DNA from: Pseudooceanicola sediminis
GTDB lineage: Bacteria > Pseudomonadota > Alphaproteobacteria > Rhodobacterales > Rhodobacteraceae
DNA: 33,414 bases
Direction of reading: 5' to 3'
Assembly: GCF_003575965.1 (NCBI RefSeq)
Contig: NZ_QWJJ01000025.1
Location: forward strand, 1 to 33,414
The notes under the pieces: model-generated
Seen by the model: only the letters and a program-made list of their open reading frames with translations
Told to the model about the DNA's origin: nothing
The model's database searches: none
In this document: one piece after another, positions 2,710-23,448 of the stretch
Numbering within the stretch: the stretch's first letter is position 1
How the letters are laid out: each line of letters starts with the position of its first letter
Position numbers and translations under genes: made by a program

Positions 2710-2748
2710 TTCGCACGACTTTCACACTGCGCTTGACAGTCGTGCGAA
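2710..2748. repeat. 11-bp perfect inverted repeat (operator candidate)
   Basis: TTCGCACGACT (2710-2720) and its exact complement AGTCGTGCGAA (2738-2748) are separated by 17 bp. The right arm overlaps the last base of the + strand -35 hexamer (TTGACA, 2733-2738). The size and position suit a dimeric repressor site or a DNA/RNA cruciform controlling the divergent Abi gene and small RNA. Confidence 0.6.
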
Positions 2749-2762
2749 GATACCCATATATG
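2733..2762 (+). promoter_or_regulatory. sigma70-type promoter of a small RNA
   Basis: TTGACA at 2733-2738 is a perfect -35 hexamer. TATATG at 2757-2762 lies 18 bp downstream, or ATATAT at 17 bp. Transcription would start near 2768-2770 and reach the terminator ending near 2846. No protein-coding gene explains this promoter. Confidence 0.6.
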
Positions 2763-2767
2763 AGAGC

Positions 2768-2846
2768 AATCGAAGGCAAAGTCAGGCCTTCAAACCCTTA
2801 GAAGCCCGCGACAGCCGTTACAGGTCCTCGCGGGTTTTCGCTTTTT
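2768..2846 (+). ncRNA. Predicted ~80-nt RNA beside the Abi gene
   Basis: The transcript is bounded by the promoter at 2733-2762 and an intrinsic terminator. It can fold into hairpin 1, GAAGGC/GCCTTC (2772-2777 with 2786-2791, 8-nt loop), then a linker with AAACCC, then the terminator hairpin CCCGCGA/TCGCGGG. AAACCC (2792-2797) could instead pair with GGGTTT (2832-2837), an alternative fold competing with the terminator stem. It encodes no convincing peptide. AbiF-type HEPN proteins are reported to have partner non-coding RNAs, so a role as guide, antitoxin or regulator of the Abi protein is plausible. That link is inference from position; the promoter and terminator are seen. Confidence 0.5.
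2802..2846 (+). terminator. Intrinsic terminator
   Basis: Stem CCCGCGA (2805-2811) with TCGCGGG (2828-2834), extendable by AAG/TTT pairs including G-U, followed by TTTTCGCTTTTT. It points in the + direction although no + strand gene precedes it, which supports the small-RNA reading. Confidence 0.7.
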
Positions 2847-3047
2847 ATACATCTACTTACGGAAATCCAAGAAGATTTGGCGAGGCAAACTCTCAGCCCA
2901 ATATGGTGCGGTGGCGCTTGGTCATCCCACTATTCTGCTTCTAGTCGACCTTCACCAGGAATAGCTTTTCCAAGCTCAGAGTTATGACGTGTGAAGATAC
3001 CGCAGGCCTGTGACCCCGTTCGTCGGGGGGCGAGCGCCCCGTTCCTG

Positions 3048-3333
3048 TCACTTGTTCCCGTCGATCCACTTCGACATGAGCCCCTTGTCGCGGAAGCATT
3101 CGTCCGGTACGGCGCGCCTTTTGATCCGGGCGAGTTTCTCAGCGAAGGCCACCTGCTTGGACGTGGGCAGCTGGTCCATGTCCGATACCGGCTTCAGCTG
3201 GGCCTGAGCCTCGATCCAAGCGCTCAAAGAGCTGAACCTCCCAGGGCAGGAGCGTCCGGTTGCGCAGGGCGAGCGACCGCGCATAGGCAATCTGCTTGGG
3301 CGTTACGGGCAGGACGTGCTTGGTGCTTTCCAT
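3048..3333 (-). pseudogene. Small conserved protein, frameshifted
   Basis: The ATG at 3333 has a strong AAAGGGGG ribosome site and starts MESTKHVLPVTPKQIAYARS, continuing to NRTLLPWEVQ. The sensible sequence then moves to another frame: SLSAWIEAQAQLKPVSDMDQ continuing to KRRAVPDECF and ending KWIDGNK at 3048. Skipping one C near 3229 (GTT CAG (C) TCT TTG AGC) joins the halves into a ~94-residue protein. Unshifted, the first frame runs into unrelated residues and stops at 3139. Two similar PTSKQ/TPKQ-x-A-x-A motifs suggest an internal repeat. Either the gene is broken or a base was added in sequencing; programmed shifting is less likely because no classic slippery site is evident. Confidence 0.65.
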
Positions 3334-3361
3334 GGTGAAACCCCCTTTCTGGCTTGGCTCC

Positions 3362-3390
3362 AAAATAGAACATAACAAGAACAACATCAA
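3362..3390 (-). promoter_or_regulatory. Promoter with LexA-type box
   Basis: On the minus strand TTGATG (3385-3390) and TATTTT (3362-3367) are spaced exactly 17 bp apart. That spacer contains GTTC-N7-GTTC (GAAC at 3368-3371 and 3379-3382 on the + strand), the alphaproteobacterial LexA motif. A bound repressor would block the promoter, implying SOS control of the frameshifted gene at 3333. The box is also 128 bp upstream of the divergent gene at 3510. Confidence 0.6.
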
Positions 3391-3509
3391 GCTAAGCGTC
3401 GGGAACACTTTGGTGCGAGAGGGAGAGAGGGGCCGGGAAAGATCAGGTCCGAGGCTGCCCGAGAGAGGGTGTCCGGGCCTGATCCTGTCCTTCATTCCGG
3501 AGTTTCCCG

Positions 3510-6500: not shown

Positions 6501-7904
6501 GGGCGCAGCTATCACGCCGATCTCGCGGCGAAGAACCAGCGCCTGCGGGTCCACTACCTCCTGGAGCCCGGCTGGAAGGCAGACGCGGCGATTCAGGGCC
6601 TCGGGCGCACCAACCGCACCAATCAGGCGCAGCCGCCGCTCTTTCGGCCGGTCGCCACCGATGTGAAGGCGGAAAAGCGGTTCCTGTCGACCATTGCGCG
6701 ACGTCTCGACACGCTTGGCGCTATAACGCGCGGCCAGCGCCAGACCGGCGGGCAAGGGCTGTTCCGGCCCGAAGACAACCTCGAGTCGCCCTACGCCCGC
6801 GACGCCCTGCGCCAGCTTTACCGCCGCATCTATCGCGGCGATCTGGCCGGATGTTCGCTCGGGGCTTTCGAGGATGCGACCGGGCTCAGCCTGACCGATG
6901 AAAACGGGCTGAAGGATGACCTGCCGCCGATCACGACCTTCCTCAATCGCCTGCTGGCGCTGACGATCGACATGCAGGCCGTGCTGTTCGCGGGTTTCGA
7001 AGAACTCCTCGATCAGCGAATTGAGGGCGCCATCGCCGCCGGGGTCTATGATCTCGGGCTCGAGACACTCCGTGCCGAGAGCTTCCGGGTGACCGACGTA
7101 CAGGTCATCTACACCCATCCGGGCTCCGGCGCGGAAACCCAGCTGCTGACCATCGCGGAAAAGCGCCGCAACACGCCTACCGCGCTCGCGGATGCGCTGG
7201 ACTGGCTCGATGACCCGAAGGCACGCTTGCTGGTCAACAGCCGCTCGGGTCGGGCTGCAGTGCAGGTGCCCGCCACCAGCCTGATGCTCGATGATGGCAC
7301 CATCGAGCCGCGCCTGCGCCTGATCCGCCCGCTTGATGCCAGCACGGTCCCGGCCAAGGTCATGGAGGACACCCACTGGCTCGAGGCCGACCGCGCGGCC
7401 TTCACTGCGGCGTGGACTGCGGAACTGGCCGAGGTGCCGGAGTTTTCGGTCTCCACACTGCACATCGTGGCAGGTCTGCTGCTGCCGATCTGGAAGCAGC
7501 TCCCCCAGGATGAAACCCGCGTCTACCGCCTGCAGACCGATGACGGTCAGCGCATCATCGGTCGACGAGTCTCGCCTGCCTGGGTCGCGACCACGCTGGC
7601 CGCCGATGCGCCCAAGCTCTCGGCCGCGCAGGTCCATGCCCTCGTTCTGGAGGGAAAGACTGTGGTGCGCTTGGCCGAAGGGATGGAGTTGCACCGCTCC
7701 CGTGTCATGGGCGTGAACCGGATCGAACTCTCGGGCTTCTCGGAGGCCGCCAAGGATCGGCTCAAGGCCGATGGCTTCTTCTCGGAGATCATCAGCTGGA
7801 AGCTTCGGCTGTTTTGCCCGACCGACGCCGATGGCATCGAGATACTGGATCGTCTGCTTGCACGTTGTCCTGTCGCAAGGCTACATGATCGCGGAGGTTG
7901 TTGA
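3510..7904 (+). CDS. Methyltransferase-strawberry notch helicase fusion
   Basis: A 1,464-residue protein. The N-terminal part is an N6-adenine-methyltransferase-like domain, with a SAM-binding loop EPSAGTG at 151-157 and the catalytic-type NPPF at 216-219. After a Pro-rich linker (~350-390) comes a strawberry-notch superfamily 2 helicase/ATPase: Walker A GDGTGAGKG at 515-523, DESH at 624-627, and the arginine-finger region GRTNRTN at 1032-1038. The ~400-residue C-terminal tail is of unknown fold. Such proteins are common on Rhodobacteraceae plasmids and some phages; their role is not settled (DNA modification, anti-restriction and chromatin-like remodelling are all guesses). The ATG at 3510 has GGAG upstream. 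The Toprim gene follows after 3 bases, so the two are probably co-translated. Confidence 0.9.
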   Translation: MTHLAPVAQASLPAPIVPLAANPAPAIVAVAEALQPDLAQGHQIDALRLRREMEHAFGGSDATGAWDWKLAYEAGEVALILFLRKFGRALLARAGAPAALLPILAKVAGLLPTHTRRSEEMERFQQFSTPLPMGLAAVAAAQITPRDLVLEPSAGTGLLAILAEIAGGTLALNELADTRADLLRLLFPGRPVTGFDAAQIDDHLDACSSPSVILMNPPFSAQANVDGRSTEATARHLRSALARLVPGGRLVAITGAGFAPDAPAWAETFGRLTETAHLVFTGAVSGAAFAKHGTSFETRISVFDKCRGGEPGGITADLRQPTSSDVAHLMSRVTAEVPPRLELDLAPAAGQGHSSPFPGNSHLTTRKPVRRPHATSAANPAKPETQTEAEDLNYALRDAAEDEDAARLSDAIYETFRLQAIDIPDAASHPTKLVQSAAMASVAPPKPTYRPKLPPAVLRDGLLSDAQLETVIYAGEAHGAHLTGSWTVDETGDVVSAAPDDAADAVRFRRGFFLGDGTGAGKGRQSAGILLDNWARGRRKALWISKSDKLLEDAQRDWSALGQERLLVTPLSRFAQGRDIPLTEGILFTTYATLRSEERGAKKSRVEQIVDWLGTDFDGVIIFDESHAMANAAGGKGERGDTMASQQGRAGLRLQHKLPNARVVYVSATGATTVHNLAYAQRLGLWGGEDFPFQTRSEFVEAIEAGGVAAMEVLARDLRALGLYTARSLSYDGVEYEMLEHALSSEQRGIYDAYAGAFAIIHNNLTAALEAANISGAADGPSGSGTLNRQAKSAARSAFESAKQRFFGHLLTSMKTPMLIASIDADMAAGHAAVIQIVSTGEALMERRLSEIPTEEWNDIRVDITPREYVLDYLAHSFPVQLYEPFTDSEGNLSSRPVTRDGQPVECREAVRRRDALIEKLASLPPVPGALDQIVQRFGTDLVAEVTGRSRRIVRKGEGHSARLVVENRAGAANLAETQAFMDDEKRILIFSDAGGTGRSYHADLAAKNQRLRVHYLLEPGWKADAAIQGLGRTNRTNQAQPPLFRPVATDVKAEKRFLSTIARRLDTLGAITRGQRQTGGQGLFRPEDNLESPYARDALRQLYRRIYRGDLAGCSLGAFEDATGLSLTDENGLKDDLPPITTFLNRLLALTIDMQAVLFAGFEELLDQRIEGAIAAGVYDLGLETLRAESFRVTDVQVIYTHPGSGAETQLLTIAEKRRNTPTALADALDWLDDPKARLLVNSRSGRAAVQVPATSLMLDDGTIEPRLRLIRPLDASTVPAKVMEDTHWLEADRAAFTAAWTAELAEVPEFSVSTLHIVAGLLLPIWKQLPQDETRVYRLQTDDGQRIIGRRVSPAWVATTLAADAPKLSAAQVHALVLEGKTVVRLAEGMELHRSRVMGVNRIELSGFSEAAKDRLKADGFFSEIISWKLRLFCPTDADGIEILDRLLARCPVARLHDRGGC

Positions 7905-7907
7905 CCC

Positions 7908-8939
7908 ATGTATTCCGAGACCGAAGACCTCGTGCGCGATCTGGCTGAAAATGCCGAAGGCGTCTGTCGTGCCTACCTTCCCGCCGGACGGCGGGAAGGA
8001 TCCTACTGGATCGTCGGCGATCTGCAGAACAACCCCGGCCGGTCGCTCTTCGTGCGGTTGACGGGCCCTGCGTCGGGACCAGGGGCAGCGGGCAAGTTTA
8101 CGGATGGGGCCACAGGCGAGCATGGCGATCTCTTGGACATCATCCGCGCCCGGATGGGGATCACGCGCTTCCCCGACCTTCTCGCCGAGGCCCGAGCGCA
8201 TCTTGGCCGTCCGCAGCCGGTCGTCCCGGATAGGCAAGAGCCGAGGAAGGCCAAGGCGCTCGGTGGCACTCCTGCGGCGGCGGCGCGTTTGTTCGCTGCC
8301 TCGAACCCGATCACAGGCACGCTTGCTGAGACCTACCTCCGTTCCCGAGGCATCACCCAATTCGGGGCGAACGGCGCCTTACGCTTCCACCCGAAGTGCT
8401 GGCATCGGGAAGAGGGGCAGACCCGGAACATCCCCAGACCGGCGATGATCGCGGCGGTTACCGATGGGGCAGGGGCCGTTCAGGGCGTGCATCGCACCTG
8501 GTTGGCCGCTGACGGGCAGGGGAAGGCGGCAGTGAAGCCAGAGCGTCGGGCTATGGGTCACCTCCTCGGCAATGCTGTCAGGCTGACCCCGCAGGATGAC
8601 ATCCTCGTCATCGGCGAAGGCATCGAGACCATGCTGTCCCTGTCCGAGGCAATCCCAGGTCTGCCCGTCTGGGCGGCGCTCTCGTCGGGACACCTCGGGG
8701 CGGTTCTGCTGCCGGAGGGGCTCCAGCGCCTCTACATCGCCATCGATCGCGATCCGGCCGGGCATCGCGCGGCAGAGAAGTTGAGCGCCAGAGCCTCCGA
8801 GGTCGGGGTGCACGTGCGCGTGCTGGAGCCGCGGCTCGGGGATTTCAACGATGATCTTCGGGCAAACGGCAAGGACGCGCTGCGCCAGCATCTGGCGGGT
8901 CAGATCGGGCCAGAGGATCGGCATCGCCTGCCCAGCTGA
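7908..8939 (+). CDS. Toprim-domain protein (DUF7146-like primase relative)
   Basis: A 343-residue protein with a primase-like layout. The N-terminal region has SYWIVGDLQNN and RSLFVRLTG, standing where a zinc/primase core would be. The middle region has PITGTLAETYLRSRGI and ALRFHPKCW. The Toprim domain carries the catalytic Glu in IGEGIET (236-240) and the DxD in AIDRDPAGH (D280, D282), with SSGHLG between. Toprim domains coordinate magnesium in primases, topoisomerases and nucleases. It starts 3 bases after the strawberry-notch gene and probably forms one unit with it, perhaps priming or processing plasmid DNA on entry. No Cys-rich zinc finger is seen, so full primase activity is uncertain. 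Confidence 0.85.
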   Translation: MYSETEDLVRDLAENAEGVCRAYLPAGRREGSYWIVGDLQNNPGRSLFVRLTGPASGPGAAGKFTDGATGEHGDLLDIIRARMGITRFPDLLAEARAHLGRPQPVVPDRQEPRKAKALGGTPAAAARLFAASNPITGTLAETYLRSRGITQFGANGALRFHPKCWHREEGQTRNIPRPAMIAAVTDGAGAVQGVHRTWLAADGQGKAAVKPERRAMGHLLGNAVRLTPQDDILVIGEGIETMLSLSEAIPGLPVWAALSSGHLGAVLLPEGLQRLYIAIDRDPAGHRAAEKLSARASEVGVHVRVLEPRLGDFNDDLRANGKDALRQHLAGQIGPEDRHRLPS

Positions 8940-9023
8940 GCTGCATCGCGCAGGGGGGGCTGGGAGTACGGGGAAGGGGGCTGCATCCCAGTCGTGGCTT
9001 TGGATCGTCGTCCTCACCCCATC

Positions 9024-10852: not shown

Positions 10853-11641
10853 TTATCGCGCCATCATGTATTCGCTCTTCAGGACCAGCAAGGTCATGAC
10901 CTCGTCGTCACCCACACGGAACGACTGCTCAGCAAGCTCATACCGATCGGCGCCCTCTGTATCGAACCAGGTGTCCGCGTCCATAAGAGACAGCGAGATG
11001 TCGTCCCGGGCTCCCTTGTGCAGGATATCGTGAGCGTTGCTCTGCGGGTCAAGTGTTCGACGCAGGAACCATCGCTCCCCGACGCTCTTCGATCTCTTGA
11101 ACCAGTTGAGGCCGCCGCGGCTGTAAGAGGCCAGGAGGCTCGGCTCGAAATCCAGATCCACCAAGCGATACGCCATGGCCGTCTTGCTGACAGAAAAGGC
11201 GTCCGAAAGAAGACGGACGGTGCGCATATCGAATTTCTTGAAGTCATTCAGAGCGCTCTTGAGCATGAACTCCGGCATCAACAGCTCTGAGGCGAACCGG
11301 TTGGCGCCCTTCTCTCGGGACATTCCTCGTTCCCGCCCCTTGCTACCCCCGATATCCTCTTTTGCACAAAACAGATGTTCTCCCCTGTGCCATTCCCAGT
11401 GCCCCAGTTCGTGTGCGAGGGAGAACCTCTGGCGCCGTAGATTTCCATGCGCGTCATTCACGGCGATTATCGCGCGGCCGACGTCAGCTCGACCATGGAT
11501 GCAAGCCTCACATCCGTCCATTTCCCGGTAGTCAACCTTGGCACCTTGAAGCCAGGCAATGGCTTCAAGGTTGATGTCTTCCGGTCGCTTCAGGCGCAAA
11601 GCCTGGAGGATCTCCTCAGCACGACGCGGAGAATGAGTCAT
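10853..11641 (-). CDS. ImmA/IrrE-family metallopeptidase
   Basis: A 262-residue zinc peptidase. The catalytic motif is HELGH at 77-81 (FSLAHELGHWEWH), and the third metal ligand is probably E119 in FASELLMP. Relatives include ImmA, which cleaves a phage-element repressor, and IrrE/PprI, which cleaves DdrO after DNA damage. The C-terminal ~80 residues (from about GLNWFKRS) form a separate domain that could sense a signal. It is the last gene of a tight trio: its ATG overlaps the previous stop as ATGA (11638-11641). The natural substrate could be the sigma-like or acidic protein encoded just upstream, or the XRE regulator at 15561; this is inference. Confidence 0.88.
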   Translation of the reverse strand: MTHSPRRAEEILQALRLKRPEDINLEAIAWLQGAKVDYREMDGCEACIHGRADVGRAIIAVNDAHGNLRRQRFSLAHELGHWEWHRGEHLFCAKEDIGGSKGRERGMSREKGANRFASELLMPEFMLKSALNDFKKFDMRTVRLLSDAFSVSKTAMAYRLVDLDFEPSLLASYSRGGLNWFKRSKSVGERWFLRRTLDPQSNAHDILHKGARDDISLSLMDADTWFDTEGADRYELAEQSFRVGDDEVMTLLVLKSEYMMAR

Positions 11642-12051
11642 TCTTCATCGCCGTTTTTGTCAGGCCAAGCGTCATCGTCGAACAGGTCTTCCAAGTCCTT
11701 CTCGATCCCTTTTCTGTCTCTCTCCGACAGCTTCTTTCCATGACGAGCGGCCACCGTATCGGGCATGAAGTTGCCAGGCCTGTTCGCAGGCCTGCGTTGA
11801 GCCATGGAGACGACATTTTGGTCGCGCGTTGCACGATCTTGCTCAGCTGCGGCCTTGGCTTCCTTCATTGCCATTTCGGCGACCTCGTCTTTCGCGGTCT
11901 CCAGCCAAGCTCTCATGCGATCACCGAAAGCAGCAATGTCCTCCCCGGCCTCTTCAGCCTCTTTTCGAATATCCTCGTCTGAAGCGTTCGTGATAGCTTC
12001 GTCGATTTCCTCCGCCAGGCGATCTTGAAAGGTTTTCTTATCCTTCGCCAT
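11638..12051 (-). CDS. Acidic helical protein, middle gene of sigma/ImmA trio
   Basis: A 137-residue highly charged protein with no recognised domain. The N-terminal half is a long acidic helix rich in Glu and Ala (DRLAEEIDEAITNASDED and ETAKDEVAEMAMKEAKAA), likely coiled-coil. The C-terminal half is more basic and Pro-rich (QRRPANRPGNF), then acidic again (DLEDLFDDDAWPDKNGDEE). It overlaps the upstream sigma-like gene by 14 bases and the downstream peptidase gene by 4, so all three proteins should be made together. It may bridge the other two, act as an anti-sigma-like partner, or be the peptidase substrate. None of these roles is shown by the sequence. Confidence 0.75.
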   Translation of the reverse strand: MAKDKKTFQDRLAEEIDEAITNASDEDIRKEAEEAGEDIAAFGDRMRAWLETAKDEVAEMAMKEAKAAAEQDRATRDQNVVSMAQRRPANRPGNFMPDTVAARHGKKLSERDRKGIEKDLEDLFDDDAWPDKNGDEE

Positions 12052-12628
12052 TGAGCATCTCTTTCATTTCCGGGTGTGCGTTGCGTGTCCTTTTGACCCG
12101 CTGCACCACCGTGTTGTATTCCCTTTCATTCCAGTCGAGGCCCGTCATGATCTCGGACTTCGATTGCCCTTCCTCCAGAGCCAGGAGGTATAGCTGTGAA
12201 TCGTCATCACCCTCGAAGAGCGCCATGAAGCGGGCCATAAATTCTTTCTCGAAGAGCTGCCCTTCTTGGTTGCACGACGAGGCAATGTCCTTCGCGGCCT
12301 CCATGTCTTTGTCGGCGTTCTTGCGAAACCCGATCTTAGGCCGCTCCGATGCAATGCTCCGCATCACGCCGGAGAGAAAGTCCATAAGTGCAACACCTTT
12401 GGGCCATTGGCGTGTCCCGGTGATCTCACTTTTCATCACCCTCATGACGGCCTCTTGAAGGACCTCCTCCTCGTCGCCGACTCGGTTGTTCCGAATGCAC
12501 CAGTTACGCGCCTTCTGAAGGAGCTTTCTGAGTGCGACATCATCGCGGAAGAGAAGGTCCAGTTCGTCAGTGAATTCCTTGAGGGTATTGAACTCTTGGG
12601 GTGTGTCTTTCGCCATGCCAATCGCCAT
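12038..12628 (-). CDS. Sigma-70-like protein
   Basis: A ~196-residue protein laid out like a small sigma factor. The region-2-like part contains LLQKARNWCIRNN, then DEEEVLQEAVMRVM and FLSGVMRSIASE. The region-4-like part is LLALEEGQSKSEIMTGLDW with NEREYNTVVQRVKR, a helix-turn-helix that would read a -35 element. It is most like the divergent sigma-70-type proteins of mobile elements. Starts are possible at 12628 or 12616; an ATG at 12679 would reach into the AT-rich divergent region. First gene of the trio, facing away from the ubiquitin-like operon, whose start is 162 bp away. It could activate that operon or its own, but no matching promoter motif can be assigned. Confidence 0.7.
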   Translation of the reverse strand: MAIGMAKDTPQEFNTLKEFTDELDLLFRDDVALRKLLQKARNWCIRNNRVGDEEEVLQEAVMRVMKSEITGTRQWPKGVALMDFLSGVMRSIASERPKIGFRKNADKDMEAAKDIASSCNQEGQLFEKEFMARFMALFEGDDDSQLYLLALEEGQSKSEIMTGLDWNEREYNTVVQRVKRTRNAHPEMKEMLNGEG

Positions 12629-12790
12629 CTTCGCTGCTCTTAATATACATATGCGCACGCAGCGACCTATCGCAGTCAAGAAAATTCAAAAAAATATTAA
12701 GGCTACGAACGCGAACACTCTTGTGCCGCGCATACACCATTGATGGCGCCTGCTGCGGGCGTCGAGCAGACAAGAAAAGGATTTGCTGCC
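12629..12790. promoter_or_regulatory. Divergent AT-rich regulatory region
   Basis: These 162 bp separate the sigma-like trio from the ubiquitin-like operon. The part from about 12640 to 12705 is far richer in A/T than its surroundings (TAATATACATATG; AAAAAAATATTAAGG), as expected for back-to-back promoters. I cannot assign -35/-10 pairs with confidence. AAGAAAAGGA lies just before the ATG at 12791 as a ribosome site. Confidence 0.45.
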
Positions 12791-13330
12791 ATGACTACCG
12801 AACAGATGGAAATCGAAGATCTCCAGGCCGCCCTGAAGGCCGGCCGCAAGCCCCGCGACCACGGACCCTACAAGGTCAAAGTCGGCGACCACGACCTGAA
12901 GTTCACCGACGCCGTCATCGACGATCCGACGCCCACCGGCCGCCAGATCATCGAGGGGGCCGACTTCCGTAAGGCCGAGGAACACCTCGTGTTCCAGGTG
13001 CTGCGCAACGGTGAACTTGAAGAACTGCGCCTCGAGGAAACCACGGATCTGCGCCCTGGCCAGGTCGAGCGCTTCCTGGTCTTCCCGAGCGCGGAATCCT
13101 TCCGCTTCGACATCGATGGCAAACGCCTCGAGTGGGGCCACAAGGTCATCAGCGGGCGCGTGCTCAAGAAGCTGGCCGGGGTCGATCCCGCGAAGTTCGC
13201 CGTCTGGCAGGTGATCCCCGGCAAGGATGACATCCTGGTCGGCGACACCGATCTGATCTGCCTCGCGGATGCTGGCCTGGAGCACTTCTTCACCGGCGTG
13301 CCCCAGACCACGGAAGGGGGTGCGGCATGA
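12791..13330 (+). CDS. Tandem ubiquitin-like protein (multiubiquitin domain)
   Basis: A 179-residue protein made of two beta-grasp repeats. Repeat 1 runs from about 25 (GPYKVKVGDHDLKFTDAVID) to about 100. Repeat 2 runs from about 101 (SFRFDIDGKRLEWGHKVISG) to about 168. Both share the strand pattern, G-[RK]-x-[IL] in the first helix and a W/F-Q-V strand. The tail reads TTEGGAA, a Gly-Gly near but not at the C-terminus, so two residues would have to be removed before conjugation. This matches the multiubiquitin-domain proteins of bacterial ubiquitin-like operons. The stop overlaps the next start as ATGA. Expected role: the modifier that is adenylated by the E1 and attached to targets; targets are unknown. 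Confidence 0.85.
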   Translation: MTTEQMEIEDLQAALKAGRKPRDHGPYKVKVGDHDLKFTDAVIDDPTPTGRQIIEGADFRKAEEHLVFQVLRNGELEELRLEETTDLRPGQVERFLVFPSAESFRFDIDGKRLEWGHKVISGRVLKKLAGVDPAKFAVWQVIPGKDDILVGDTDLICLADAGLEHFFTGVPQTTEGGAA

Positions 13331-13707
13331 GCCTCCTCCCCCGTCAGGATCGCCTCTACCTCGAGGGTCGCGGCATCACCGTTCGCGAGGTCATCGAAGG
13401 CGGAAAGAAGGGCGTGATCCTCACCGGGATCACGCTGCCGGAAGGCAAGTATCAGGTCGCCCAGGTGGATATCCTGATCCTGCTGCCGCCCTCGTATCCC
13501 GAGGTCGCCCCCGACATGTTCTACGCCGTGCCGCATCTGAAGCTCCTTGCCGGCCAGCGTGAGCCCCGCTGCACGCAGGCACGCCAGGCCTTTGATGGCC
13601 AGAACTGGCAGCGCTGGTCTCGCCATAACAACCAGTGGCGTCCCGGCACCGACGGCATCTGGACCATGCTGAAGCGGGTCGAAGAGGCCCTGGAGGTGGC
13701 GGCATGA
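13327..13707 (+). CDS. E2-like (UBC-fold) protein
   Basis: A 126-residue protein of the prokaryotic E2-like group. UBC-fold cues are YQVAQVDILILLPPSYPEVAPDMF, cut here as QVDILILLPPSYPEVAPDMF at 46-65, which is the strand followed by the YP-x-x-P turn of E2 enzymes. The region after it is SRHNNQWRPGTDGIWTMLKR. The only cysteine is C82 in EPRCTQAR, so it is the sole candidate for a thioester carrier; if it is not catalytic, transfer must use another chemistry. The stop overlaps the E1 start by ATGA, giving tight coupling in the Ubl-E2-E1 order. Expected role: accepts the Ubl from the E1 and passes it to a target. Confidence 0.8.
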   Translation: MSLLPRQDRLYLEGRGITVREVIEGGKKGVILTGITLPEGKYQVAQVDILILLPPSYPEVAPDMFYAVPHLKLLAGQREPRCTQARQAFDGQNWQRWSRHNNQWRPGTDGIWTMLKRVEEALEVAA

Positions 13708-15113
13708 AGCGCAGCGACATCACCCTCCACGCCCGTCACCGCGACAAGCTGCAGGCGCTGCTCGCGCACCCCCGTGGGCACGAGGGCGCCGCCTACATGC
13801 TGCTCGGCAAAAGCGAGATCGCGCAGGACCCCTGGGACCTCGAGCCGCGGACCCGTTACACCTCCTACGAGGTCATCGCGATCCCGCAGGAGGACCGCGT
13901 CGATGCCAGCGACAAGCACGTCACCTGGAATACCAACTCCTTCGCCCAGCTCTGTCGCCGGGCCAAGGAGGAAGGCCTGGTGCCGGCGATCGTTCATAGT
14001 CACCCGGGAGGCTTCGACGGTTTCTCGGACCAGGACGATCGCAACGAGCGCGACCTCTTCACCATGGCTCGGAACCGTAACGGCGAGGGGACACGCTTGG
14101 TGAGCGTCGTGCAAGTCGGTGACGGCCTCTACCGGGCACGGGTCTGGGAAGACGACATGGCACCCTTGCCCTGTCACCGCGTGACCGTCATCGGCATTCG
14201 GCTCGAGATCCAGTCGACCGACGTGCCGACCCCGTCGGAAGCCTTGGCCCGGCAGGCACTGGCCTTCGGGCCGGAGGTCAACGGACTCCTCAAACAGCTC
14301 TCCGTTGCCGTGGTCGGCTGCGGCGGCACCGGCAGCCCGGTGGTCCATCTCCTCGCTCGCCTCGGCGTGGGGCGCATCTTGGTCATCGACGATGACGTGG
14401 TCGAGCATTCCAACCTGAACCGCCTGTATGGCGCGACCCGAAAGGATGCCGAAAACGCGGTGCCCAAGGTCGACGTCATGGCGCGCGAGGTGACGATGAT
14501 GGGCCTCGACGTCGAGATCCGGTCGATGAACGGCTGGGTGGATGCGCCGCATATCCGTGACGCGCTGAAATCCTGCGACGTCATCTTCGGATGCACGGAC
14601 GATCACGCCGGGCGCCTCTACCTGAACCGCGTGGCGCACTTCTACCTGATCCCGGTCATCGATGTCGGGCTGGTCCTCATGCCCCGTGACGATGGTGAGC
14701 CCGGCCTCCTCGAGATGGCCGCGCGGGTCAGCGTGCTGTTTCCCACGTCGGCGTGCCACGGCTGCCGCGGCACAGTCGATCGCGTCAGGGCTCGCGAGGA
14801 GGACCTCCAGCGATCGGACCCCGCCGAATATGAACGGCAGAAGACCGAAGCCTACGTCCGCGGCGGAGGTAATCCCGCGCCGGCCGTCGTGACCTTCACC
14901 TCCGAGGCCGCCACCATGGCAGTGAACGAACTTCTTGCCGGTCTCGTCGACTTCCGCGGCGGCGGTGGATGGACATGGCAACGCTATCGCAAGCTCGACA
15001 AGGGTTTAGAGCGTTCGCAGGCGGCGCAGCCCCGGTCCGACTGCCCGGTCTGCGGCAGCGAGGAATACTGGGGTCTCGGCGACATCGATCCGTTCCTGGA
15101 TCGCATCGGGTGA
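13704..15113 (+). CDS. JAB protease-ThiF/E1 fusion
   Basis: A 469-residue fusion. Residues ~1-160 are a JAB/JAMM metallopeptidase: E27 (GHEGAAYM) and HSHP-x6-SDQD (H98, H100, S108, D111). Residues ~180-430 are a ThiF/E1 adenylating domain: GCGGTG at 206-211, VIDDDVVEHSNLNR with R240, K255, and FGCTDDHAGR. Two CxxC pairs (C351/C354 and C447/C450) fit the structural zinc of MoeB-like enzymes. No cysteine lies between them, where an E1 catalytic Cys would be expected. JAB domains remove or trim ubiquitin-like tags, so one polypeptide could both activate and remove the tag. The start at 13704 overlaps the E2 stop. Confidence 0.88.
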   Translation: MKRSDITLHARHRDKLQALLAHPRGHEGAAYMLLGKSEIAQDPWDLEPRTRYTSYEVIAIPQEDRVDASDKHVTWNTNSFAQLCRRAKEEGLVPAIVHSHPGGFDGFSDQDDRNERDLFTMARNRNGEGTRLVSVVQVGDGLYRARVWEDDMAPLPCHRVTVIGIRLEIQSTDVPTPSEALARQALAFGPEVNGLLKQLSVAVVGCGGTGSPVVHLLARLGVGRILVIDDDVVEHSNLNRLYGATRKDAENAVPKVDVMAREVTMMGLDVEIRSMNGWVDAPHIRDALKSCDVIFGCTDDHAGRLYLNRVAHFYLIPVIDVGLVLMPRDDGEPGLLEMAARVSVLFPTSACHGCRGTVDRVRAREEDLQRSDPAEYERQKTEAYVRGGGNPAPAVVTFTSEAATMAVNELLAGLVDFRGGGGWTWQRYRKLDKGLERSQAAQPRSDCPVCGSEEYWGLGDIDPFLDRIG

Positions 15114-15118
15114 GCGGG

Positions 15119-15478
15119 ATGATGATCGACATTCTGCGGAAGAGCCTCGAGCTCTTCCGCCTCATTCCACGAAGTGATCTGCTTGCCAGGGTAACACCCA
15201 CACACCCGACGCCGGATCAGATCGTGCCGGGGGAGATGACCATCGTGCGCGATGGCGTCGACAAATGGGCCTGCTTCCACTGCCCTGGTGGGTGCGGCGA
15301 GACCATCAAACTGTCCCTCAGCAAGAACCGGAGGCCCAGGTGGACGGCCATGTCAGACTGGCTGAGGCGCCCGACCATCTCGCCGTCGGTCCGCCAGACG
15401 AACGAATGCCGGTGTCACTTCTGGATCCGGCAGGGGCGGATTGACTGGTGCAAGGACAGCGGCCCCGGGGCGGGATAA
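15119..15478 (+). CDS. DUF6527 protein, fourth gene of ubiquitin-like operon
   Basis: A 119-residue protein with the DUF6527 pattern: WACFHCPGGCGE (C52, C55, C59), then RWTAMSDWLRRPTISPSV, and CRCHFWIRQGRIDWC. The conserved PTISPSV serines and the His of CHFW look like a catalytic pair, and as I recall this family is reported to act as a serine protease linked to bacterial ubiquitin-like operons, perhaps trimming the Ubl tail. Here that would mean removing the two residues after GG. The start at 15119 (MMID) is 5 bases after the E1 stop. It is probably the last gene of the operon. Confidence 0.8.
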   Translation: MMIDILRKSLELFRLIPRSDLLARVTPTHPTPDQIVPGEMTIVRDGVDKWACFHCPGGCGETIKLSLSKNRRPRWTAMSDWLRRPTISPSVRQTNECRCHFWIRQGRIDWCKDSGPGAG

Positions 15479-16967: not shown

Positions 16968-18080
16968 TTATTCACTCCAGTCGAGTTTCAACCAGTATCG
17001 CGTGTGCCTCCGCTCGCCGGTTCGAGCGAGCACGCCCTTCTCGACCAGATCCTGCAGATCGCGGGTCGCGGTCGCGCGTGAGGTTCCGGTGATCTTGAGG
17101 TAGTTGTCGGCGCTGAGGCCGCCTTTGAAACCGCCAGGGCCTTCCCGCAACATTCGAGCGATGGCCTTGGCCTGGCGTTCGTTCAAGTGGTCTCTGTGAC
17201 GATCGTAGAAGTGTGCCTTGCTGATGAAGAAGCCGACGCGGTCGAGTGTTGCCTGTTGGGCTTTCAAGACAACTTCCGCGAACCAGACGAGCCAATCGGT
17301 CACATCGAGCGTTTTTTGATGCTGCTCGAGCTGGTCGTAGTATGCCTTGCGCTGCTTCTCGATGGTGAAGGCGAGCGAGATGAGGGTCGGCTGGCCAATA
17401 TTCTGCGCCAGCGACTTTTCAGCGAGGGCGCGACCCAAGCGTCCGTTGCCGTCTTCGAATGGGTGGATGCTCTCGAAATAGAGGTGGCTTAGCCCTGCGC
17501 GCGTCAGCGCTGGAAGCGGCTCTGCTCCCCCCGGCCCGGTCTTGTTGTACCAATCCGCGTATCGCTCCATCTCAGGCATGACCCGCTCCGAGGGCGGCGC
17601 TTCGAAATGGATCGTGGGCCGGTCAAGGCGGCCGGAAACGATTTGCATCGCCTCGGCGTGTTGTCGGTAGGCCCCGATGGTTTCCAACCGACTGTCATGG
17701 GACAGGAGCATTCGATGCCAGCGGTACAGCGTCTCATGGGTCAGCGGCTCTGCAAAACTGGAATAGACGTCGACCATCATTTCCGCGACGCCCTGTTCGC
17801 GCGGTTTGGCAGGGTAGCTGTCCGGATCGAGGCCCAGATGGCGGCGCAACGAAGACTGGACACTGAGCCGGTCGAGGATTTCACCCTCGATGGCGCTCGT
17901 CTGCATTGCTTCCTCGCTGAGCAGTTCGATGCGGAGTTGCTCGCGCTCCGGCTGGCTGACATGATGGACCGCGCCGAGGATTTCTCCGGACGACAGCAGG
18001 AACGTCTGCTCAAACGGCTCCAGCGCGGAGGCGTCATACCGGAAATCCGGCCAATCAGGCAGCGTCCAGTTCCAAGCCAT
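16968..18080 (-). CDS. Fic AMPylase with DUF4172 and winged helix
   Basis: A 370-residue three-domain Fic protein. The N-terminal DUF4172-type domain (from WNWTLPDWPDFRYD) includes the inhibitory helix T61-S-A-I-E65-G66, matching (S/T)xxxE(G/N). The Fic core motif HPFEDGNGRLGR is at 206-217, with catalytic H206. The C-terminal winged helix from ~318 has LSADNYLKITGTSRATATRD. Fic enzymes attach AMP to target hydroxyls; the inhibitory Glu keeps them off until displaced. A 10-bp-arm palindrome touches the start codon, which suggests self-repression through the winged helix. All key residues are present, so it should be active. Confidence 0.92.
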   Translation of the reverse strand: MAWNWTLPDWPDFRYDASALEPFEQTFLLSSGEILGAVHHVSQPEREQLRIELLSEEAMQTSAIEGEILDRLSVQSSLRRHLGLDPDSYPAKPREQGVAEMMVDVYSSFAEPLTHETLYRWHRMLLSHDSRLETIGAYRQHAEAMQIVSGRLDRPTIHFEAPPSERVMPEMERYADWYNKTGPGGAEPLPALTRAGLSHLYFESIHPFEDGNGRLGRALAEKSLAQNIGQPTLISLAFTIEKQRKAYYDQLEQHQKTLDVTDWLVWFAEVVLKAQQATLDRVGFFISKAHFYDRHRDHLNERQAKAIARMLREGPGGFKGGLSADNYLKITGTSRATATRDLQDLVEKGVLARTGERRHTRYWLKLDWSE

Positions 18081-18601: not shown

Positions 18602-19264
18602 TTACGGTGTGTGCTGCTCATGCGGCGATGCAGCGCGAACGGCAATTTCTTCCAAGATTTTGTCGATCTCGCCCCATATGCGTGGTTCCACTTGGCCGCG
18701 GATCAGAGCCCATTTACTCAAGACGTCGAGGGGGTCGTGGTCCCGAAGGAGCATACCCAGGCTGGCCGCATCGACTGCCAGTGATGTCCGGGCCTGCCAC
18801 TGCGTGTTTCGAGTGCGCCGCTCCTCAGCAATTGGCGCGAAGACCGGCGACAGTTGCCAGCCTTTGACTGCACGGCGCAGGGCGGCACGCACCACATGTG
18901 CCGGCTCAACACCACAAGTTTCCAGCGCTGCTTCCTGTCGTTCGAGTGCGTTGACCCTGATGTCGATCTTCCGGGTCGGGCTCAAAGCTCGTGCCGAAAC
19001 GGGAGCTCTCAGGCTGGTATGCGGGTCAGAGCTTTCCGCGGTGACTTGGTGCGGCGCCACGGCACTTTTCGGCGCACGCTCTGACTCGTGCCGATCAGCG
19101 CCAACGTCAGCGACTGGGGTGCCTGTCTTTGTTGCTGTGACCTGTACCTCTTCCTCCTTCTCGGGAACCTCGCGGTCACCCTGTTGCAGGGTGGCGGCGT
19201 AGGCTGGGTCGGGCCTAGTGATGGTCGGGATCTTCTTGCGCAATCGACTGTCCTCACGCAGCAA
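18602..19264 (-). CDS. VirC2-like protein beside oriT
   Basis: A ~220-residue protein following the VirC1/ParA-like gene. The N-terminal ~90 residues are charged and likely disordered (EVPEKEEEVQVTATKTG). The C-terminal half has a ribbon-helix-helix-like start, KIDIRVNALERQEAALETCG and then VVRAALRRAVKGW, and a second block, RTSLAVDAASLGMLLRDHDP. The layout resembles VirC2 of Ti plasmids, a DNA-binding protein that helps relaxase act at the border or oriT. The start is uncertain: TTG at 19264 overlaps the parA stop; an ATG at 19312 is also in frame. The VirC2 assignment rests on pattern and neighbour, not on a search. Confidence 0.55.
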   Translation of the reverse strand: MLREDSRLRKKIPTITRPDPAYAATLQQGDREVPEKEEEVQVTATKTGTPVADVGADRHESERAPKSAVAPHQVTAESSDPHTSLRAPVSARALSPTRKIDIRVNALERQEAALETCGVEPAHVVRAALRRAVKGWQLSPVFAPIAEERRTRNTQWQARTSLAVDAASLGMLLRDHDPLDVLSKWALIRGQVEPRIWGEIDKILEEIAVRAASPHEQHTP

Positions 19265-19973
19265 GAATGTTGTTGAGAATGTCCGTCGCCTCCTCAAGCG
19301 CCTCGACGACATGACGTACATGTGGACGCATAAGGGGGTTCGGATCGGATTGCTTTTCCAGCGCCAAGGCGTGGAGAAGCCCCTTCTGATCCATCTCCTT
19401 GTAAGTGTTTCGTCGCATCATGACGGTCTCAATCACCGGAAAACGGGTGAGCGCTTCTTCAATCAGGGCGGCGTCAGCACGGGTCGTTTTCGGGTCGACC
19501 ATGTTGAGGACGACGTGGTGGCGCGGAAGGCTGGAGGGGTCGTCAACACGGGATTTCAGTTTCTCAAACCAATCAGAAGTCTGCGCTCCGACATCGAAAT
19601 CAGACGTCGACAGCATGACGGGCGTCACGATGTGGTCCGCAAGCACCGCAATGCCGTCTGACCATTCGGCACCGACCCCTGCGGTATCGATGAAGATGAA
19701 GTCTGCCGTGCCTGCCATGTAGACCTGATTGATCTGATCCTCGACACCCGCCACGCTTTCGACGGTGACCGAGCAGAGAAGCGGCGAACTCAGCCCACCG
19801 GTTTCCGCCCGAGCATGCCAGGCACCGAGTACTCTCGTGCTGTCCGTGTCGATCAACATCACTCTGCGTCCGGCGGCGATCGCGGCGCTGATCAAGGCGC
19901 GCGAAAGCGTCGTTTTTCCACTGCCCCCTTTCCGGGCCATCGCTGCGATCACCACAAGATTTTCGTTCGGCAT
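19254..19973 (-). CDS. ParA/VirC1-like ATPase
   Basis: A 239-residue ParA-type ATPase. The deviant Walker A is K15-G-G-S-G-K-T21 (ARKGGSGKTTLSRAL). Walker A' is MLIDTDSTRVLGAW, and Walker B is FIFIDTAGVG. The ATG at 19973 has GCGGAGGATC immediately upstream, so the longer frame from 20033 is not used. Compared with plasmid-partition ParA it is short and lacks an N-terminal HTH. Its start, its later sequence (RRNTYKEMDQKGLLHAL) and the position beside relaxase genes resemble VirC1, which recruits relaxosomes to the VirD4 coupling protein at the pole. No clear ParB follows, which also favours a transfer role over partition. Confidence 0.82.
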   Translation of the reverse strand: MPNENLVVIAAMARKGGSGKTTLSRALISAAIAAGRRVMLIDTDSTRVLGAWHARAETGGLSSPLLCSVTVESVAGVEDQINQVYMAGTADFIFIDTAGVGAEWSDGIAVLADHIVTPVMLSTSDFDVGAQTSDWFEKLKSRVDDPSSLPRHHVVLNMVDPKTTRADAALIEEALTRFPVIETVMMRRNTYKEMDQKGLLHALALEKQSDPNPLMRPHVRHVVEALEEATDILNNILAA

Positions 19974-20149
19974 TCTGATCCTCCGCAAAAATAGTGAATC
20001 GCAACGATAATACCCAAATGTCGCTAAACGCATGAGGCGGAGGGGTCAAGCAGAAGTCGGGATGCGACCCGCGTTTGGCATGCAGCGGGCGGCGTTGTGC
20101 GATGACCGTGCGACGTCTGCCGTGGCGCCATCAGCATTCGCCGCGGGGC

Positions 20150-20525: not shown

Positions 20526-21113
20526 ATGCCCCGCCGCCGCAGACTGTCAGTGATCGAACGATCGACCATCTCCCAAGAGCGCCGGAACGGCGTCTCCGCG
20601 GTGTCGTTGGCAGCCCGCTACGATGTCAGCCTGAAGACGATCTACAACGTGGTGAACCACTGGGATGAGCGTCAGACAGCGAACGGCAGCCGATCGCGGG
20701 TTGTGGGGATCCGGGTCTCGGACGACGACCTGCGCCGGTTCGACGCGGCGCTGTCGCGGCGCGGGATTGCGCACCGCTCGGATGCCATGCGCCGCCTGAT
20801 GCTGGCGGCCGAAGGTGTTTTCCTGCCCGACGACGAGATGTGTGACGAGTTGCGCAACCTCGGCGCCGCGCTCAACCGGGTCGGCAACAACGTGAACCAG
20901 ATCGCGCGACGTCTGAACGAGGCCAAGGTGCGGGGCGAGAGACTGTCCTACCCGGCCTCAAGTCACCGTGACGTCCGCGCCCTTGCGGGTCTGGTCTTCG
21001 ATCTGGCCGACCAGGTCCAGGAGATGTCGCGTGCGCGGCGCAGCGTGCTGGACCTTGAGATCAGCTCTGCCCTGGCGGGCCTCGCCGAGAGGAATGAGAA
21101 TGGCGCGGAGTGA
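20526..21113 (+). CDS. mobC: MobC-type relaxosome accessory protein
   Basis: A 195-residue DNA-binding protein. The N-terminal ~50 residues form a helix-turn-helix (SQERRNGVSAVSLAARYDVS, then LKTIYNVVNHW). Next is a ribbon-helix-helix-like part, VVGIRVSDDDLRRFDAALSR. The C-terminal MobC domain has the signature LGAALNRVGNNVNQIARRLN. MobC proteins bind oriT and melt DNA around the nick site so that relaxase can cut. The start at 20526 is taken because the upstream extension would run through the oriT hairpin; no strong ribosome site is seen. The 3' end overlaps the relaxase gene by 14 bases, the usual mobC-relaxase coupling. Confidence 0.85.
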   Translation: MPRRRRLSVIERSTISQERRNGVSAVSLAARYDVSLKTIYNVVNHWDERQTANGSRSRVVGIRVSDDDLRRFDAALSRRGIAHRSDAMRRLMLAAEGVFLPDDEMCDELRNLGAALNRVGNNVNQIARRLNEAKVRGERLSYPASSHRDVRALAGLVFDLADQVQEMSRARRSVLDLEISSALAGLAERNENGAE

Positions 21114-23448
21114 CCGGGTCCGTGGCATCGACCCGGCGCTATTTGACCGCGGCTGGAGCCGAGTTTCGGGATCCTGGCAGGGGCTTTCCAGGGGCGCGCA
21201 GATGGTTCGGGCCGCGCGCGGCTATTCGCCAGCGATCTTCAAGGCTATCTCGAAAGGGGGCTGTCACACCGGGGCGCAGCTACGGGCTCAGCTCACATAT
21301 CTCACAACAAAGTCGACCCATATCCTCGACAGTCGCGGCACCCATGACGGGAAGAAGCAGCTCTCGGAAGCCGAGATCAACCGAGTGGCGCGGCGGTTCG
21401 AGAACCAGTGGAACGAGCGCTACAGCCCCAAGCTTGGCCATACGTCGCATCTGCTGATGGCATTCCCGGTTGGGACCAGGGGTGAAGAGGTGCGCGATAT
21501 CACCCAGGCGGTCTGCGAGAAGTTCTTTCAAGGTGAGGGGTCGCAATTCGACTATATTGCTGCAATACACCAAGATCGCGCGCATCCACATGCGCATATT
21601 GTTCTGAACCGCCGCAGCAAGGATGGCGAAATGTTCTTTCTCGGGAAGGATCATCACTTCAACTACGACGCCTTTCGCGAGGCGATGGTCGAGGCGGCCC
21701 GGGTTCATGGGATCCGCCTTGAGGCGACGCGTCGTCTGGATCGCGGCGTCACGACCTACCGCGCCGAGATCGATGAAATCTACAAGGCTCGCGACGAAGG
21801 TCGTCCCCCAGTTGAGCGCCAGAGAACCGGCGCGGACCTGGGGGCCGCTCTGGAAACCGTCAGGCACAAGGCGTTGATCTACCGTGGGCTCGCGGCGGAG
21901 GCGTCACGTTCGAATTTCGACGACGTGGCCGAAGCGCTCGAGCGGGCCAGCACCATCCTTGCCAGTGGCGGTCAGATGCAAGCTGACGGAGCCATCTACA
22001 TGTCCCAAGACGAAGCAGCGTTCGACACGCTGATCACCGAGTTTTCTCAGAACATTCGCCAGATCGAGGCGGCGATCGACAGGGCGCCGGCGGCCGAGAG
22101 GCCGGTGATCGAGCGCAAGCTGACCGACGTTCTGGCCTCGGTCGCGCATTTGAACCCGCTCGGGGATCGCTCCGCCGCCCTGGTCGATGCTCCGTCCCGG
22201 GACGGCATCTATGCAAGGCCAAACGCCAGTGAAGATCACCTCGCGCGTCTTGACGATGGAGAGGTGGCACCAAAGCTGGCCGAAGCGTTGCAAGGCACGG
22301 GCATCGATGCCGAGGCTGTGGCCGCGCGCCTGCGGGAGGGGGCAGGCAATGCCGCATTGGAGCGCCAGTGGCTGGCACAGGATCTGCAGGGGATTGCCAA
22401 AGCAAGCGACCTCGATCTGGAGAAATCTGCGGACCGGGAAGACGCGCTCGACCGGCTGGAAGCCGTGCATGTTCGGCTGGGCGATGTTTTGACCGATGTA
22501 CGCGTCCTGCGCGCGCCAACCGAGGTCGACGAGGTGGATGACGCTGAGGCAGCGCTTGGTGAACGGTTGACGACACCTGGGAGTGATCTCGCGCAAGATG
22601 GGTCCGACATCTTTGCCCCATCGGAGCGGCAGGCGTTCAGAGCGCTGGTGGCGCAGTTCCGCCGGACGGATTTCGATCATCCGTTCTTCGACGACCCGTC
22701 CGTCCGGCGGGCAGGTGCCGTGGAGGTTGAAGAGGCCCGCGCCGCGTTCGACGTCTACGCGCAGAAATCGCCGCAACATGCCGAACTGGCCTCAATGGCC
22801 TGGGAACAGATCACCGACAGTCGAATGCCGCCGCAATATGCGGTATCCGAGCAGGACCGCACGCTTCATGCTGGCGACATGGACCTCGCCTTGCGGGATC
22901 CTTCGGATCATCTCGGTCCGATTGCCGAAGAGCTCCGCACCCTCGCCCGCTATCGCACGGAGATGCCGGATGATGAATTCGGGAAGGCCGTCCAGGACGA
23001 AATCAATCACCTTCGTTCGCTAGGCGCGTCGCGTGCCTATATCAGCGAGCGCAGTTTCGAGATCGAGGACCAGGCGCGACAAGACTACGCCGAGCGCCGG
23101 TATCTGGAAGAGACAGCGCCAACCGTCATGGCCTTTGTGCGAAACGCCGACGTCGAGGGCCCGCTCTCCGAGTCAGAGCAGCAGGACATCGTCCGGCAGA
23201 TAAACGAGCGACTAAGCCACGACGCAATCGACGCGCTGCGGGCCGGTAACGCGGACGTCCTGGACACATTCACCGAGGATCCGCTGCGCCAGCTGGAACT
23301 CGCCAAGACCTATCTCCAGAGCAGCGAGGTCACTGCGCACGGCCCGGCGATGGAGCGCGTTCTCGATGCATTGGCGGAAGAACAGATAGAGGCGCAGCGC
23401 GCACGCCACGCTGCGGCAGATGGCGAGAAGGGGATCACCCATGGATAA
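21100..23448 (+). CDS. MOBP/VirD2-type relaxase
   Basis: A 782-residue conjugative relaxase. Motif I contains the candidate nucleophile Y67 in GAQLRAQLTYLTTKS. Motif III is H157-x-D-x-x-H162-P-H164-A-H166 (AAIHQDRAHPHAHIVLNRR), the metal-binding HUH triad. The nuclease domain covers about the first 250 residues. The remaining ~530 are acidic and helical and probably serve recruitment to the coupling protein. It cuts one strand at oriT and leads it into the recipient. Two ATGs are close; 21100 is chosen because AGAGGA is at proper distance. It overlaps mobC by 14 bases and virD4 by 8, so all three are one operon. Confidence 0.9.
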   Translation: MARSDRVRGIDPALFDRGWSRVSGSWQGLSRGAQMVRAARGYSPAIFKAISKGGCHTGAQLRAQLTYLTTKSTHILDSRGTHDGKKQLSEAEINRVARRFENQWNERYSPKLGHTSHLLMAFPVGTRGEEVRDITQAVCEKFFQGEGSQFDYIAAIHQDRAHPHAHIVLNRRSKDGEMFFLGKDHHFNYDAFREAMVEAARVHGIRLEATRRLDRGVTTYRAEIDEIYKARDEGRPPVERQRTGADLGAALETVRHKALIYRGLAAEASRSNFDDVAEALERASTILASGGQMQADGAIYMSQDEAAFDTLITEFSQNIRQIEAAIDRAPAAERPVIERKLTDVLASVAHLNPLGDRSAALVDAPSRDGIYARPNASEDHLARLDDGEVAPKLAEALQGTGIDAEAVAARLREGAGNAALERQWLAQDLQGIAKASDLDLEKSADREDALDRLEAVHVRLGDVLTDVRVLRAPTEVDEVDDAEAALGERLTTPGSDLAQDGSDIFAPSERQAFRALVAQFRRTDFDHPFFDDPSVRRAGAVEVEEARAAFDVYAQKSPQHAELASMAWEQITDSRMPPQYAVSEQDRTLHAGDMDLALRDPSDHLGPIAEELRTLARYRTEMPDDEFGKAVQDEINHLRSLGASRAYISERSFEIEDQARQDYAERRYLEETAPTVMAFVRNADVEGPLSESEQQDIVRQINERLSHDAIDALRAGNADVLDTFTEDPLRQLELAKTYLQSSEVTAHGPAMERVLDALAEEQIEAQRARHAAADGEKGITHG

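Follow-up and report, generated by a model that had tools for sequence, protein, structure and literature searches.

How a bacterial ubiquitin-like conjugation operon is switched on, and how its modifier could reach a target if the transferring enzyme keeps no catalytic cysteine, are the questions raised by four coupled genes at positions 12791–15478 of a 33,414-nucleotide stretch of Pseudooceanicola sediminis DNA (contig NZ_QWJJ01000025.1; the whole stretch is referred to here as the window). Their sequences identify them as a Bub (type 6e) operon. The explanation that best accounts for the locus as a whole, which we consider probable, is that the operon is controlled by a divergent triad encoding a sigma-factor-like protein, a putative anti-sigma factor and a CapP-family peptidase, and that transfer is cysteine-free. 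The direct observations behind it are the gene content, the conservation of active sites, the conservation and exchange of the triad, and a promoter geometry common to relatives.

A preliminary description of this DNA had proposed the four coupled genes, and these were confirmed, translations and starts included: neighbours overlap by ATGA at the first two junctions, and 5 bp separate the last two genes. All four proteins matched Pfam families above the curated cut-offs: the ubiquitin-like protein (Ubl) carries two stretches of PF14452 Multi_ubiq (3e-28), the E2-like protein matches PF14462 Prok-E2_E (6e-49), the JAB-E1 fusion PF00899 ThiF (4e-39) and PF14464 Prok-JAB (2e-7), and the fourth protein PF20137 (8e-25). 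By these families, the same description was right to see a set for modification, activation, transfer and processing, with a tandem Ubl and a fused JAB-E1. In phmmer searches of the PDB, the JAB-E1 protein matched Citrobacter BubCD (E=3e-44), the E2 matched Citrobacter BubB (E=1e-12, with an identical QRWSRH block) and the Ubl matched the multi-ubiquitin domain structures 9d5b and 8u38 (E=2e-32); the DUF6527 protein had no convincing relative there (best E=0.047). The Citrobacter BubB and BubCD structures (9ea4, 9eae, 9eav) show the same Prok-E2_E with QRWSRH and the same N-terminal JAB fused to E1. They differ in that the window's E1 has two CxxC pairs, of which the first is absent from BubCD in the alignment and the second lies outside the aligned part, and in the regulator, which in the window is the sigma triad. 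The layout had been called little known, yet it is published as type 6e, described in the available text of Iyer et al. 2006 (PMC1779556) as a polyUbl, a cysteine-less E2 of the RWD fold, a JAB-E1 fusion and a metal-binding protein Y, and structures have been solved for relatives of its enzymes, under the name Bub. The window holds the same four genes in one operon (Multi_ubiq Ubl, Prok-E2_E, JAB-E1 fusion and DUF6527/protein Y), whereas no regulator is named in that text. Because this gene order is repeated at many loci, with the Ubl and E2 fused in some, chance is excluded as the origin of the layout.

Table 1. Features of the window, with positions, strands and remarks (aa, amino acids; nt, nucleotides).
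Feature	Position	Strand	Remarks
Ubl (BubA-like), two Multi_ubiq domains, 179 aa	12791–13330	+	ATG 12791, TGA 13330
E2-like (BubB-like), Prok-E2_E, 126 aa	13327–13707	+	ATGA overlap with Ubl gene
JAB-E1 fusion (BubCD-like), 469 aa	13704–15113	+	ATGA overlap with E2 gene
DUF6527 protein, 119 aa	15119–15478	+	ATG 15119 (or 15122); 5 bp past E1 stop
Sigma-factor-like protein, 192 aa	12038–12616	-	ATG at 12616; alternative ATG 12628
Small acidic (middle) protein, 137 aa	11638–12051	-	composition, C-terminal TVAARH motif, PADLOC capH
CapP-family ImmA/IrrE metallopeptidase, 262 aa	10853–11641	-	HELGH at 77–81
Promoter-like pair TGACTGC-N17-GCATA	12650–12678	-	33 nt upstream of sigma-like gene
Promoter-like pair CGAACGC-N17-GCATA	12706–12734	+	56 nt upstream of Ubl start
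Relaxase	20968–23448		
Type IV secretion system (T4SS) coupling protein	23420–25396		
TrbL/VirB6	30941–31966		
T2SSE-family (VirB11-like) ATPase	32402–33310		
ParA/VirC1-like	19254–20033		
Abi-like gene	2072–2779	-	PADLOC PD-T4-5 1.5e-16
Fic/DUF4172 gene	16968–18080	-	PADLOC SoFic 1.7e-42
Two pyridine nucleotide-disulphide oxidoreductase genes	26005–28828	-	neighbouring
Strawberry-notch-like helicase gene, then Toprim gene	3510–8939	+	helicase gene large

The operon start at 12791 given in the preliminary description stands for the operon itself; what had been missed is the divergent triad at 10853–12616, which is the less known part of the locus. Its first product is called sigma-like, and not a member of the extracytoplasmic function (ECF) sigma factors, because curated sigma profiles remained below their cut-offs: the window's protein had no Sigma70 family match in Pfam, and the Sigma70_r2 cut-off was passed by one of ten relatives (L190; L numbers denote loci). 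An AlphaFold2 (AF2) model of the protein comprises two helical domains (predicted local distance difference test, pLDDT, 72.8), the corresponding Foldseek rows are mostly sigma factors (E of at least 0.17), and relatives are annotated as sigma-70 in their records, including two full triads (L188, L194). The middle protein contains 37 Asp/Glu as against 24 Lys/Arg, and its net charge is negative in the window and in 14 of 15 relatives. No Pfam family, and no helix-turn-helix (HTH) family, was matched by the window's middle protein above cut-off. Against the PADLOC capH profile it gave E=1e-5, one of five matches among ten middle proteins tested (the others being L084, L193, L194 and L196), whereas the HTH CapH of L182 scored 3e-26. 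A TxAAR motif is present in 17 of the 19 middle proteins encoded beside CapP and in none of the four without CapP. The middle protein is predicted to be both an anti-sigma factor and the CapP substrate. The third protein matched PF06114 (1e-16), PADLOC capP (3e-59) and the CapP structure 7t5t (E=5e-8), and with its HELGH the window encodes a CapP-family HExxH metallopeptidase, as CapH + CapP systems do.

Among 34 named Bub loci classified by hand, many of them near-identical, a full triad lies divergent and adjacent to Bub in 16 (L001–L008, L012, L014, L015, L079, L080, L083, L085 and L188). Two further loci have the sigma and middle genes without CapP (L088, L190), and one from Bacteroidota has a weak triad (L191; sigma profile 7e-9, CapP 3e-30, middle gene unmatched). 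An HTH gene with an ImmA gene is found at six (L181, L182, L184, L187, L189, L192) and RES-Xre-like genes at two (L009, L011); none of these regulator types was recognised at four (L016, L183, L185, L186), and L010, L013 and L017, which are truncated or at contig ends, were left unclassified within the 34. The triad also stands beside Bub at L171, L172 and L174, which are outside this set. The pairings are not independent events, because 17 genome loci are closely related. At the regulator place of L009 (7817–9089) and L011 (7816–8932) lie genes for a 248-aa protein resembling a RES toxin and for a partner, presumably an Xre/MbcA-like antitoxin.

The triad is not confined to Bub. In L084 it is divergent to a cyclic oligonucleotide-based antiphage signalling system (CBASS; cyclase 3e-121, E2 2e-88, SAVED-HNH 4e-130), as it is in L193 (cyclase 1e-200, SAVED-HNH 1e-124), there with a gene for a 92-aa protein between. 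In L194 it faces E1-E2 and JAB proteins (7e-32, 2e-20), a metallo-beta-lactamase (MBL)-like protein (RTasMBL 1e-9) and a patatin-like gene, a set labelled here 6A-MBL-like. These CBASS and 6A-MBL-like partners lie on other plasmids. The gene opposite the triad in L089, L195 and L196 encodes the 92-aa protein, which is conserved at all four loci (L089, 5081–5359; L193, 3561–3839; L195, 3571–3849; L196, 3550–3828) and accompanied by a DUF2188 gene in two of the four plasmids. Two members tested had no PADLOC match; the locus is perhaps an immune operon. Opposite a sigma-middle pair that lacks CapP, L086 and L090 have a small gene for a hypothetical protein and a gene of the rRNA adenine N-6-methyltransferase family.

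Comparison of the window with L005 indicates that the regulator can change while the operon does not. Ubl, E2, E1 and DUF6527 are 96–98% identical between the two, as against 46% for CapP, and the L005 sigma and middle proteins had no significant tblastn match to those of the window; by blastp, the proteins of this type in L079 share 28–32% with the window's. The DNA of the window and L005 becomes similar at 12745, which is 46 bp ahead of the Ubl start and 11 bp past a GCATA box; promoter and regulator were thus exchanged together beside a constant operon.

That box belongs to a pair of mirrored elements, resembling -35 and -10 boxes, which are visible on reading the divergent regions. A consensus, TGTCCGA-N17-GCATA, was fixed from L089, L193, L195 and L196, and 16 divergent regions (L079 left out) were scored against 500 dinucleotide shuffles each; all regions had been viewed beforehand, so the scoring was not blind. 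A score of at least 10 of 12 was reached on at least one strand in 13 of the 16 regions and on both strands in eight. In ten test regions, with L007 and L080 left out as near-duplicates, the 17-bp spacing scored 9.4 and 10.0 of 12, compared with 7.1–8.5 for spacings of 11–16 and 18–23. Upstream of 33 other sigma-profile matches the means were 7.5 and 7.5 (with 9 and 10 as the highest single scores), whereas 35 triad-type rows, many of them duplicates, averaged 10.0 on the sigma side and 8.1 on the opposite side, a comparison in which a 250-nt limit lost the operon-side box of long regions (the L005 kind), L085 and L174 were read from wrongly placed start codons, and L173 was skipped for its short upstream region and examined separately. 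The motif also occurs in L173, L174 (in a GCCTT form), L086, L087 and L090, and is absent from L112, L113, L190 and L191. A loose form of the motif matched the window's own genome 13 times, against nine for a reversed control, which shows no wider regulon. The boxes of the window itself are degenerate: GCATA stands at the matching place on both strands, but the operon-side -35-like box is unrecognisable. The sigma-side pair is suggestive of a promoter.

The transfer chemistry was approached by aligning 26 E1, 26 E2 and 25 DUF6527 sequences, taken as profile-selected open frames from the window and fetched loci, with the partial E1 of L096 kept in the 26-row counts. The JAMM residues of the JAB-E1 protein (E27, H98, H100, S108, D111) and its adenylation residues (K255, D299) are invariant (26/26). 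In the E2, C82 is kept in 15 of 25 relatives and replaced by Ala or Gly in the other ten, whereas S98, R99 and H100 are invariant (26/26), as are W97, W104 and D109; like a type 6e E2, it has no conserved catalytic cysteine. The CxxC pairs of the E1 (C351/C354 and C447/C450) are found in 21 of 25 relatives, and because all four cysteines are absent together from the same four (L088, L190, L191, L192), they fit a structural metal site rather than catalysis, presumably comparable to the structural zinc of MoeB/ThiF. C291 is kept in 23 of 26 sequences, and the sole invariant E1 cysteine is C297 (26/26), which we place in the Cys-Thr-Asp (CTD) stretch of the adenylation site. Conservation thus argues against cysteine thioesters, the ordinary E1-E2 chemistry that had been assumed for this operon, and the canonical thioester route was rejected, with the E2 lacking a conserved cysteine and the invariant E1 cysteine in the adenylation motif only. 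The invariant Ser-Arg-His block of the E2 fits a cysteine-free route, and conjugation by Bub reportedly proceeds via oxyester intermediates.

The Ubl of the window ends in TTEG followed by a short GAA tail. Among 26 rows reaching this motif, TTEG is present in 19 and its glycine in all 26, and the motif is also found where Ubl and E2 are fused; the glycine is the likely site after which JAB cuts. Since the stretch between the two domains of the window's Ubl has no TTEG, the tandem probably stays whole. In the DUF6527 protein, C55, C59, C97 and H100 are invariant (25/25) and likely form one metal site; a part as target adaptor would be a guess. A Ser-Lys protease is said to occur in Bub, and DUF6527 was considered for it and rejected, as S90 is invariant but no lysine is (best K49, 21/25). 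The AF2 model of this protein was unusable (pLDDT 47.9).

In the mechanism proposed, JAB would trim the two-domain Ubl after TTEG, the E1 module would adenylate its C terminus, and the E2-like protein would hand it on to a target, using no catalytic cysteine but probably the invariant serine, with the DUF6527 protein, likely metal-binding, perhaps picking that target. The divergent triad would set Bub expression. The sigma-like protein would drive both its own operon and Bub through the mirrored promoters and be restrained by the acidic middle protein, until the CapP-type protease, triggered probably by single-stranded DNA (ssDNA) like CapP and PprI, cleaved the middle protein near the conserved TxAAR and freed the sigma-like protein. 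Sigma activity, the anti-sigma role, cleavage, the ssDNA trigger and an anti-phage purpose are what we infer here, and we read the triad as a form of the CapH-CapP DNA-damage switch that works by a sigma and anti-sigma pair.

As a more specific form of this, we lean slightly towards a self-amplifying switch, in which the protease destroys the anti-sigma factor, the sigma factor fires mirrored promoters for itself and for the opposite immune operon, and the whole is a plug-in unit swapped with its own promoter. Three observations weigh against sigma-type control: the window's sigma-like protein scores E=0.04 and 13.5 bits on TIGR02937 (sigma70-ECF), where the cut-off is 42.9; its sigma-side boxes score 9 of 12, a value reached by 37 of 500 shuffles; and its operon-side boxes score 8 of 12, reached by 178 of 500. 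The triad could instead be an ordinary CapH-CapP switch, the middle protein being a diverged CapH repressor on mirrored operators and the sigma-like protein a DNA-binding cofactor without a role in RNA polymerase. The five capH matches agree with this, the mirrored boxes could be palindromic operators, and the available text of PMC13373217 places CapW or CapH + CapP at 219 of 544 Bub operons. We nevertheless judge it unlikely, since the window's middle protein has no HTH family, against the strong capH score of the HTH protein in L182, and is acidic together with nearly all its relatives; two unlike boxes at a fixed 17-bp gap, mirrored, have the look of two promoters; and L188 and L194 carry the sigma-70 annotation. 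That the triad is simply a neighbour in a defence island, with a role of its own and hitchhiking beside Bub, would accord with the Bub operons that have RES-Xre-like genes or no recognised regulator, but all 16 full triads are divergent and adjacent, and half of the 16 scored regions have the motif on both strands at 10 of 12 or more, so we give this little credence.

The purpose of Bub is a separate matter. The preliminary description stated that related bacterial systems act against phage; such an action of the present set was not borne out, and the available text of PMC13373217 shows no phage protection for Bub. Bub might here be a general stress or element-maintenance system, which a DNA-damage trigger would fit as well. 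We think this possible but doubtful, because the same control module also faces CBASS, an anti-phage dCTP deaminase gene lies beside Bub in L188, and the spread is sporadic (among the 380 genomes scanned for the order, 14 have an E1 match at E≤1e-40, the window's own included). It is highly improbable, finally, that C82 acts as the catalytic cysteine of a canonical thioester route. C82 is the only cysteine in the window's E2 and is kept in close relatives, but the Ala/Gly replacements include L014, which shares 65% E1 identity with the window, and the E2 was called cysteine-less by the 2006 authors in the available part of PMC1779556.

On the evidence, then, the Bub core is a known kind of operon and its sigma-type triad control a variant of the CapP switch. 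With CapH + CapP the locus shares a CapP-family peptidase encoded beside Bub or CBASS, to which the window adds a sigma-factor-like gene and a substrate candidate without a recognised HTH. In Deinococcus, according to the available text of PMC10904395, the related metallopeptidase PprI/IrrE is activated by ssDNA and requires an Arg in the cleavage loop of its substrate DdrO, which is a repressor and not, as predicted here, an anti-sigma factor. SigN, a sigma factor of the Bacillus subtilis plasmid pBS32 (PMC6751061, in the part available), acts after DNA damage and activates its own expression, as the triad's sigma-like protein would, but is LexA-repressed, and that part mentions neither a CapP-type protease nor an immune operon. 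CapK + CapS provide DNA-damage control of Bub and CBASS with parts resembling anti-sigma regulation, but consist of a kinase and a winged HTH repressor, with no protease or sigma factor of their own mentioned in the available text of PMC13373217. Bil has a two-domain Ubl, E1, E2 and JAB as in the window, but in the accessible text of PMC11354881 its E1 and JAB come from separate genes and its E2 is a CEHH cysteine enzyme, whereas the window has a fused JAB-E1 and no conserved E2 cysteine and so falls outside Bil. No link between a sigma factor and CapP appeared in the titles or abstract starts among the matches listed, which does not establish its absence in print.

If the proposed control is correct, DNA damage would turn on immunity through an alternative sigma factor, beyond the removal of a repressor, giving a self-amplifying response; where CapW, CapH and CapS, in the sources available, work by relief of repression, the triad would supply an activator. 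The mirrored boxes and triad would then be a sequence tag for finding as yet unrecognised immune operons, for example at the 92-aa protein loci L089, L195 and L196. Conservation over 26 rows, for its part, makes the idea of a cysteine-free E2 testable at a single residue.

The layout is sparse: among the 385 genomes scanned for the class, the window's included, 12 have a Multi_ubiq match at E≤0.001 and 11 one above the cut-off. E1 matches occurred in 236 plasmid records, 107 of which have one place covering at least 80% of E1, and in 18 phage records, none covering 80%. In L188, the dCTP deaminase gene beside Bub (7267–8967; PADLOC 5e-160) is flanked by T4SS genes.

Interruptions of the E1 region are not confined to one locus. 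An IMG/VR search matched one contig, L197 (3300038696_000376, 2318–6435), a decayed copy in which CapP and the middle gene are intact, the sigma protein is matched for residues 135–192 only and E2 for 46–126 only, and Ubl and DUF6527 are unmatched. Its E1 is matched to residue 226 only; a 544-aa serine recombinase comes directly after it, with apparent phage genes beyond. Possibly this E1 gene was the integration site of a phage. In L079 (pP73C, 13691–14962) E2 and E1 are separated by an IS256 transposase gene, and the E1 of L083 (Aestuarium, 5023–5916) breaks off after about residue 96. The L083 genes had been considered as an unrelated operon of unknown kind, which was rejected, the three being Ubl, E2 and the cut-short E1.

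The window is a single contig from base 1 (label C23 in its assembly). The preliminary description placed the four genes on a conjugative element; conjugation-type genes do lie on the same contig (Table 1), which may belong to a plasmid or to an integrated element. The Abi-like and Fic/DUF4172 genes suggest further defence cargo on this element. The two oxidoreductase genes separate the gene for the coupling protein from those for TrbL and the T2SSE-family ATPase. The strawberry-notch-like helicase gene of the window is followed by a Toprim gene; L196 has a strawberry notch gene as well, located after the triad.

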